Assembly (NCBI RefSeq): GCF_004698125.1
Contig: NZ_ML214298.1
Coordinates: 124,001-188,000, forward strand
Origin: Halosimplex halophilum
GTDB lineage: Archaea; Halobacteriota; Halobacteria; Halobacteriales; Haloarculaceae
DNA: 64,000 nucleotides
Reading direction: 5' to 3'
Shown in pieces: positions 41,122 through 42,945 of the stretch. The translations under genes were made by a program, and so were the position numbers. The stretch's first letter is position 1. Each line of letters starts with the position of its first letter. Under the pieces are notes generated by a model. That model searched no databases, was not told where the DNA came from, and saw only the letters and a program-made list of their open reading frames with translations.

Positions 41122-42294
41122 ATGAGCGACGCCGCCCAGTCCCCGGCCGACGACCCCCGCGCCGCCGCCGACGACCTCGTCGCCGACCTGCGGGAGGCCC
41201 GCGACGCCCTCCAGCGCGCCCGCGAGCGCGTCGACGAGGTCGGCGAGTCCGAACTCCGGACCGTCGCCGACACGTACGACGACCTCACCCGGCTGTTCGA
41301 CCGCTACGAGGAGGAGGTCACCGGCGACGGCGACTTCAAGACGTTCATCGAGTTCCAGAGCCAGATCGCCGCCGTCGTCGAGGAGATGCCCGACGACATC
41401 CGCCACCAGGAGGTCTTCGAGGAGGTCGACGACCTGCTCCAGCAGCGCCGGCTCACCGAGTCCGACTGGGCGAAGGTCCGCTCGGCGCTGGAGCCCGTCC
41501 GCGAGGACGTGCGCCGGATCGACGACCGCGACGAGGCCCGGGAACGCTACGAGGACGCCCGGTTCGCCGTCGAACGCCGCCTGGACGACTTCGCGGACCG
41601 GATCGAGGACCTGGAGGACCTGCAGCGCCTGGGCGACGCGGACCTCGACGCCCCGACCGAGCGGCTGCGCGACCCCATCGAGACCTACAACGACCGCGTC
41701 CGCGACGCGTTCGCCGACTTCCGCTCGTCGGCGAGCGCCCGCGACCTGCTGGCGTTCGTCGCCAAGACCGATGCCTTTCCGCTCGTGCCCTTCGAGTCGC
41801 CGCCCGCGGACCTCCGGGAGTACGTCGAGAGCCACGCCGCCGGCGAGGAGCCGGTCGGGCAACTGCTGGAGTACGCGGAGTACTCGAAGTCGAAGCTCGA
41901 CCATTACGTCGACGACCCGGCGGCGCTGAAGCGCAACGTCTCGACCCGGCGGACCTACCTGCGGCGGCTGGACGCCGAGCCGCTGACCGTCGACTGGCCG
42001 CCCGTCGAGGCCGAGACGCTCCGGTTCCGGGCACGCGAACTGACCAGCGTCGTCGCGCGCTTCGCCGACCGCGTCGAGGAGGGGGAGGCGGTGCTCGTGG
42101 CGCTGCGCGAGGTGCGGGAGTTGCCCCGGGAGACGGACTACGAGCGGCTCCGCAACAGCGCGCAGGCCCGCGCCCAGCTGGGCCCCGAGGAGCGCGAGCG
42201 GCTGGCGAGCGGGGACGTGGCCGACGAACTGGAGGCGTGCCGCGACGCGACGGAACGGCTGGAGGACGCGCTGGAGGAGTACCCACGGCTTTGA
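41122..42294 (+). CDS. coiled-coil conserved haloarchaeal protein
   Basis: A 390-residue, almost wholly helical, acidic protein with long heptad-like regions (ADLREARDALQRARERVDEV; DARFAVERRLDDFADRIEDL). No membrane segment, metal site or enzyme motif is visible. It resembles a haloarchaeal family of unknown function (I believe DUF7118, not certain). Placement 1 bp after hisI suggests shared transcription rather than shared function. Confidence 0.78.
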   Translation: MSDAAQSPADDPRAAADDLVADLREARDALQRARERVDEVGESELRTVADTYDDLTRLFDRYEEEVTGDGDFKTFIEFQSQIAAVVEEMPDDIRHQEVFEEVDDLLQQRRLTESDWAKVRSALEPVREDVRRIDDRDEARERYEDARFAVERRLDDFADRIEDLEDLQRLGDADLDAPTERLRDPIETYNDRVRDAFADFRSSASARDLLAFVAKTDAFPLVPFESPPADLREYVESHAAGEEPVGQLLEYAEYSKSKLDHYVDDPAALKRNVSTRRTYLRRLDAEPLTVDWPPVEAETLRFRARELTSVVARFADRVEEGEAVLVALREVRELPRETDYERLRNSAQARAQLGPEERERLASGDVADELEACRDATERLEDALEEYPRL

Positions 42295-42360
42295 GCGGCT
42301 GGTCGGTGAGTTTCGGTGACTCTCTCGGCGCCAGCACCGCGACCGGAGCGATCGAGAACA

Positions 42361-42652
42361 GCACCGCAGAACAGCGTGAAAGCCCCAGCCGGTTCGACTT
42401 GAGGGGCTCGCTGCGCTCCTCGCTCACTGTGTTCGCTGCGGTGCTTGCGTCGCCCGTCTGCGTCGAACCGGCTGCCCCTTTCATTCCCGCCCGCATAGAC
42501 TGGTCGGTCAGTAGAAACGGGCGGGAATGAAAGGGGCGACCGTCTCGGCGACGGCCGGGGAAGCAAGCACCGCAGCCGAGTGAAACGAGGCGAGGCGCGC
42601 AGCGAGCCGCCCGAGCCGAGACGGTCGGGGCTTTCACGCTGTTCTGCGGTGC
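42361..42652. repeat. 292-bp four-stem (cloverleaf-like) palindromic element
   Basis: The 405 bp between the convergent genes ending at 42294 and 42700 hold this element and no gene. Four perfectly paired stems join without gaps: outer 42361-42386 with 42627-42652 (26 bp, GCACCGCAGAACAGCGTGAA...); stem A 42387-42398 with 42462-42473 (AGCCGGTTCGAC); inner 42474-42493 with 42518-42537 (GCCCCTTTCATTCCCGCCCG); stem B 42538-42549 with 42615-42626 (GACCGTCTCGGC). Loops A and B are inverted near-copies. The stem A and stem B sequences differ, yet each is self-paired. It shares TGAAAG/CTTTCA ends with the R repeats. Confidence 0.92.
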
Positions 42653-42699
42653 GGTCGAACGGATCGCTGCGGTAGACTCGCTCCCGGTTCCTCCGGAGA

Positions 42700-42945
42700 C
42701 TACTCCTCGCGTTCCTCGGGTGTGTAGGTCTCGACCTCCAGGGCGTGGATGTCGGTGGTCATGCGGTCGCCGAGGGCGTCGTAGACCATCTGGTGGCGGT
42801 CGACGAGCGACTCGTCGGCGAAGGCGGGCGAGACGACGGTGGCGGCGAGGTGGTCGTCGTCGTCGGCGCCGCGGGCGCGGGTGACGGCCGCCTCGGCGTC
42901 GGGGATGGACTCCTCGATGAGCGCCTCGATGTCGGCGAGATCCAT
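42700..42945 (-). CDS. BolA-family protein
   Basis: An 81-residue protein with BolA features: IEALIEESIPDAEAAVTR, an ATVVSPAFADESLVDRHQMV strand-helix (the F.G.S.V.RHR region of BolA) and VYDALGDRM. BolA proteins partner monothiol glutaredoxins in Fe-S handling; one such glutaredoxin is encoded at 53621-53962. ATG at 42945 gives a standard-length BolA. Confidence 0.85.
   Translation of the reverse strand: MDLADIEALIEESIPDAEAAVTRARGADDDDHLAATVVSPAFADESLVDRHQMVYDALGDRMTTDIHALEVETYTPEEREE

Follow-up and report, generated by a model that had tools for sequence, protein, structure and literature searches.

The palindromic stretch at positions 42361-42652 of the window, the 64,000-nucleotide piece of Halosimplex halophilum DNA that was analysed, is on balance probably a member of a family of non-coding, non-autonomous, REPIN-like foldback DNA elements that occurs across the haloarchaeal class. 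The copies are dispersed, they are present or absent at the same site in different species, and they display Watson-Crick covariation, GNA tips, inversion and sharing of half-cassettes. The family is present in most sequenced haloarchaea and supplies thousands of naturally covarying DNA hairpins, which makes selection on chromosomal DNA structure directly testable. The element is also a marker of recombination, in the form of inversion and cassette exchange, between haloarchaeal species.

All four helices of the preliminary description are found in the window copy (26/26, 12/12, 20/20 and 12/12 bp), and they abut directly, leaving no base unpaired where they meet. As had been noted, the left half is related to the reverse complement of the right half, yet the two contain different self-paired stems. 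The element lies between converging genes, a DUF7118 gene on the plus strand and a BolA gene on the minus strand, and it has no coding potential. The approximately 14 copies in its own Halosimplex genome (identity 75-83%) carry no coding content. The features of the region are as follows.

41122..42294, plus strand: neighbouring gene for a DUF7118 protein (PF23432; Pfam E-value 3.9e-149)
42325..42360, plus strand: left ACCGC/ACAGC-rich flank, probably in the unit, upstream limit uncertain (at most ~70 bp)
42361..42386, plus strand: left outer arm (O), GCACCGCAGAACAGCGTGAAAGCCCC, exact complement of 42627-42652
42387..42398, plus strand: 5' strand of stem A, AGCCGGTTCGAC, 12/12 paired with 42462-42473
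42399..42461, plus strand: upper part of hairpin A, with CTCGCTGCGC and GTGCTTGCG boxes; GNA tip lost
42462..42473, plus strand: 3' strand of stem A, GTCGAACCGGCT
42474..42493, plus strand: inner arm (I), GCCCCTTTCATTCCCGCCCG, near-invariant in the family, 20/20 paired with 42518-42537
42494..42517, no strand: variable centre of the inverted dimer, from the alignment
42518..42537, minus strand: right copy of the inner arm, pairs with 42474-42493
42538..42549, minus strand: first strand of stem B, GACCGTCTCGGC, 12/12 paired with 42615-42626
42550..42614, minus strand: upper part of hairpin B, with a GAA triloop tip (CCGAGTGAAACGAGG), from the sequence and the GNA survey
42615..42626, minus strand: second strand of stem B, GCCGAGACGGTC
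42627..42652, minus strand: right outer arm, pairs with 42361-42386
42653..42690, minus strand: right GCGGT-rich flank (ACCGC on the minus strand), limit uncertain
42700..42945, minus strand: neighbouring gene for a BolA-like protein (PF01722; Pfam E-value 6.5e-18)

Folded as a single strand of DNA, the window element has a z-score of -14.6, and none of the dinucleotide shuffles folds as well (0/100). The four abutting helices are compatible with the four-way cloverleaf proposed earlier, but the predicted DNA minimum of this copy, when trimmed, is an extended foldback hairpin at -116.5 kcal/mol, compared with -101.8 kcal/mol for the cloverleaf. The cloverleaf is the predicted minimum in 14 of the 32 complete copies. 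In a repeat search that allowed mismatches, the outer repeat of the window copy reaches 42358-42423/42590-42655.

Sister Halosimplex genomes with the element include H. salinum YPL4, H. aquaticum XZYJT29 and H. pelagicum R2. Complete copies follow a common layout, with an outer arm containing AACAGCGTGAAAGCCCC, a hairpin, an inner arm containing GCCCCTTTCATTCCC and a centre, after which the order is reversed. The two palindromes thereby form one unit in inverted orientation, as seen in 32 complete copies. The AACAGCGTGAAAGCCCC segment of the outer arm is near-invariant across the family (33 copies aligned), and the spacing, approximately O-102-I-49-I'-102-O' in bp, is conserved in seven species. 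In decayed copies, a hairpin, one of the inner arms or an entire half is missing. A covariance model for a single half, built on 62 sequences of which 16 are from outside Halosimplex, matches 245 of 292 Halobacteria genomes and 65 of 77 genera, which confirms that other genomes carry the element. The other 47 genomes have no match at the sensitivity of this model, and the copy number is highly variable. Both inverted dimers and single halves occur in other haloarchaeal families.

Among the copies with confident calls, 24 are located between tandem genes, 10 between divergent genes and 1 between convergent genes (approximate counts, from a codon-based predictor whose training set was a few genes of the window). 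The convergent setting is particular to the window copy, and copies are usually not found between convergent genes. A plasmid search gave 11 partial matches, all of them haloarchaeal, and a phage collection searched with the element gave none. Rfam returned no match above the threshold, only sub-threshold chance matches driven by the palindrome, and no description of the family was found in Rfam or by keyword and sequence-word searches of the literature accessible without subscription.

The unit seems to run about 60-70 bp past both ends, through ACCGC-rich flanks. Reading into the element, ACCGC is enriched within approximately 70 bp on either side and is strand-polar (56 copies), with about 240 ACCGC compared with about 10 GCGGT in the inner 80 bp of the flanks. 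These flanks are probably part of the unit because they are also missing at empty sites. In several copies, a further outer arm in direct orientation lies about 62 bp upstream. In the flanks of L055, L068, L076, L040 and L044, exact 9- or 15-bp tandem repeats with ACCGC abut the element.

Many sites are common to several Halosimplex species, with flanks that are 77-96% identical, and sites are shared by up to five species with contents that differ. Except for a few pairs, orthologous copies resemble each other no more than random pairs do (medians 0.787 vs 0.786). Among the four most similar orthologous pairs, with 89-98.5% identity, three are inverted relative to their flanks (L028/L056, L041/L061 and L040/L074) and one is not (L001/L039). 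Furthermore, the half cores L027R, L053L and L058R, which come from three non-orthologous loci in two species, have 98.8-100% identity to one another, and the other half differs. Such flips and half swaps could result from ordinary recombination between the repeated arms. A comparison of filled and empty sites, which the preliminary description had proposed, reveals that the window site is filled in some Halosimplex species and empty or decayed in others. The element is present in three species, only 33-40 bp separate the genes in two, one sister species keeps a solo right outer arm, and another contains differently stemmed arms. At the window site in genome G003 (L206), the element is replaced by 541 bp of unrelated sequence. 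Separate remnants are found at L207 and L326 in genome G006, where only GGGGCTTTCACGCTGTT and flank are kept, and both break exactly at the junction of the outer arm and the stem, which is the position of the would-be four-way junction.

The persistence of sites across the genus could alternatively mean that the element has a host function. It would then be a chromosomal site at fixed intergenic places, where the cloverleaf serves as a binding or recombination site (for a nucleoid protein or a structure-specific nuclease, or as a hot spot) and cassettes are exchanged. We consider this unlikely. While it agrees with the sharing of sites by up to five Halosimplex species despite differing contents, with the near-invariant outer and inner arms, and with the strand-polar ACCGC repeats at the flanks, which resemble protein-binding iterons, it is at odds with the highly variable copy number and the genomes in which the half model, at its sensitivity, has no match. 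The window site is also empty or decayed in several sister species, and there is no fixed gene context among the copies.

The pairing in the hairpins is kept while the sequence varies. The 12-bp stem is paired at 12/12 positions, or nearly so, in almost all of 90 Halosimplex halves. In the 32 complete Halosimplex copies, with 64 stems of which 46 are distinct, 96.6% of the stem pairs are Watson-Crick, compared with 55% in shuffled stems and 63.5% in the best of 1000 shuffles, and stem changes thus do not break the pairing as often as they keep it. In an alignment of 62 halves with 30 pairs, 415 cells are doubly changed with the pair kept, compared with 128 when shuffled and 40-76 when the structure is slid. 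Double changes are seen at 22 of the 30 pairs, and only five cells contain one-sided changes to G·U. Most elements have one stem of the CG...CTCCGG class and one of the GAC...TCGAC class, and within a copy stem A matches stem B at only 40% of positions. It is therefore each hairpin that keeps its own pairing, and not the full-length foldback.

The hairpin tip on one strand is a GNA triloop closed by a Watson-Crick pair in 83 of the 90 Halosimplex halves, and the left half of the window copy (hairpin A) is one of the 7 exceptions. The N of the triloop is A in 35 halves, C in 22, G in 16 and T in 10, and the closing pair varies. These tips match the motif of the very stable DNA mini-hairpin d(GCGNAGC). 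G·T pairs account for 0.4% of the 12-bp stems, compared with 7.9% in shuffles, and in tRNAs from the same genome, used as a control, 31 of 626 pairs (5.0%) are G·U (Fisher p = 2e-8). The near absence of wobble pairs argues against a functional RNA, and in combination with the GNA tips we read it as suggesting that the structure is kept at the DNA level rather than at the RNA level.

The earlier claim of selection on structure in each half holds in that self-pairing is kept despite sequence change (415 vs 128 cells). Selection itself is not proven, because templated copying from arm to arm would leave an equal mark, and double changes exceed single changes already between halves that are 93-97% identical (8 two-sided stem changes compared with 4 one-sided). 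This excess fits either strong selection or templated copying. In the latter case, template switching during replication (quasi-palindrome correction) would copy one arm to the other without any selection on structure, and the pairing would be a side effect of mutation in an old repeat that is inherited passively. The equal rarity of every kind of mismatch in the 12-bp stems also fits such copying. However, stems A and B of one copy are not homogenised, although the foldback would pair them, and the GNA tips and loop boxes are conserved along with the pairing. Half-cassettes are moreover found at unrelated loci, and inheritance is therefore not passive alone. Template switching is in our view quite unlikely as the full explanation.

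For the REPIN-like element, the building block is a hairpin cassette of about 110 bp. The Halosimplex unit consists of two such cassettes joined head to head via the near-invariant inner arm and bounded by the near-invariant outer arms, giving an inverted dimer that may extrude as a four-way cloverleaf. The working form is presumably single-stranded or cruciform DNA, and the arms may act as recombination or recognition sites for the flipping and swapping of cassettes. The family would persist as selfish repeats that are mobilised or copied in trans by a host or transposon enzyme, as bacterial REPINs are. It is possible, if rather doubtful, that this is a new kind of mobile or recombining archaeal DNA, in which hairpin cassettes, their stems free to vary yet always complementary, are turned around and swapped between constant arms by a dedicated enzyme that responds to DNA shape (the GNA tip and the four-way junction) more than to sequence.

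Among the functions proposed earlier, the best fit is a non-autonomous element that folds as single-stranded DNA. Neither a mobiliser nor an insertion event was found. No fresh transposition was caught, and near-identical complete copies are located at orthologous sites only. There was no target duplication or clean insertion junction at three sites, where the flanks are too diverged or the whole spacer is replaced. No recurrent gene was found beside the copies, the sole large cluster consisting of spurious reading frames. The transposase with matching ends that the preliminary description had suggested was not found, and there was no transposon or gene bounded by the ends of the element at the copies and solo ends inspected in four genomes. 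A Y1 transposase was rejected as the mobiliser: PF01797 is absent from the element-rich genomes G005, G009, G029, G037 and G058, and it is present in the element-poor genomes G010 and G026, without association to the element. The possibility that the hairpin is an insert with a 5-bp GCCCC target duplication was also rejected, as the predicted empty site GTGAAAGCCCCTTTC is absent from the DNA examined and arm-less copies retain both CCCC blocks. Solo matches to CAGGGTGAAAGCCCC were discarded as elements, since they appear to resemble 23S rRNA genes.

The perfect terminal inverted repeats, the intergenic location and the empty sites are also features of a MITE that belongs to a conventional (DDE) transposon and is recognised through its terminal inverted repeats. 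This is very unlikely given that the copies and solo ends inspected in the four genomes include no transposon or gene with such ends, that a target duplication and a clean junction were not seen, and that the sequence beyond the arms varies widely while preserving the structure, something a DDE transposase would not need. The earlier suggestion of a structured RNA or a bidirectional transcription terminator is the least probable of all, because even though there is extensive covariation, TNC/UNCG-like loops on one strand and a window copy between convergent genes, it fits poorly with 0.4% G·T compared with 5.0% G·U in the tRNAs, the lack of an Rfam match above the threshold, a palindrome without a preferred strand, and contexts with 1 convergent case among the confident calls (24 tandem, 10 divergent).

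Among known relatives, the element would work most like the bacterial REPINs. Similar to REPINs and REP-BIME, it is a non-coding, intergenic and dispersed palindrome that forms inverted dimers and has no gene of its own, and these repeats are thought to move via single-stranded DNA, as proposed here for the element. REPs are 20-40 bp in length and contain GTAG or CGTC tags, the GTAG type being associated with a RAYT (Y1) transposase whose gene the repeats flank (PMC3116915, PMC3733652). The half of the element differs from a REP in its length of about 110 bp, its variable 12-bp stem, its GNA tip and its base motifs GAAAGCCCC/GCCCCTTTC, with no GTAG/CGTC tag. Archaeal Y1 proteins have been reported only as the IS200 subclass (PMC6006769). 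Unlike in REPINs, Y1 genes do not track the element, which thus departs from REPINs in size, tag and transposase alike.

The PATEs and SMRs of Haloquadratum are transposase-free mobile repeats of a haloarchaeon (PMC3119063). PATEs contain palindromes, as does the element, and SMRs have inverted termini and no target duplication. According to their description, PATEs have no terminal inverted repeats but near-terminal palindromes like those of IS605 transposons, to which they are linked (PMC3119063), and the element is not a PATE as defined in Haloquadratum because of its perfect 26-bp terminal inverted repeat. SMRs are described as approximately 80-110 bp long and highly uniform within each type, whereas the element is approximately 290 bp with copies that are 75-83% identical, and the description of PATEs and SMRs mentions, for neither of them, an inverted dimer whose paired stems vary freely (PMC3119063). 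With respect to SMR-type features, the element has terminal repeats, and a target duplication was not seen.

The inverted terminal repeats of parvoviruses (AAV) are also palindromes with internal hairpin arms, and they occur in flip and flop orientations. They are located at the ends of a viral genome and are resolved by the Rep nickase, whereas the element is internal chromosomal DNA without a known nickase. We know of no head-to-head four-helix unit among the mitochondrial mobile hairpin elements. Like the element, these are gene-less hairpin repeats that invade intergenic DNA (sponge repetitive hairpin-forming elements, PMC2800124), but they are organellar and lineage-scattered, whereas the element is a head-to-head four-helix unit with inversion and half-cassette exchange.

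At L258, L259, L261 and L267, which represent another haloarchaeal family, a half-cassette is joined, upstream of the match, to a different hairpin repeat ending in ...GACGAGGCTGGGGAGGCGTGAGGTGCGG, which may be a different partner half. The copy at L214:2990-3220 is a monomer whose loop contains small extra nested hairpins, as though these had built up inside the hairpin. A second, unrelated family of palindromic repeats (GGCCGGGTTCCCGCAGGTCG...CGACCGAGGAAACCCGGCC) with GAACGAAGTGAGC-type tips adjoins a tRNA-Arg at L066:740-915, and stretches of this repeat region recur in several Halosimplex genomes.
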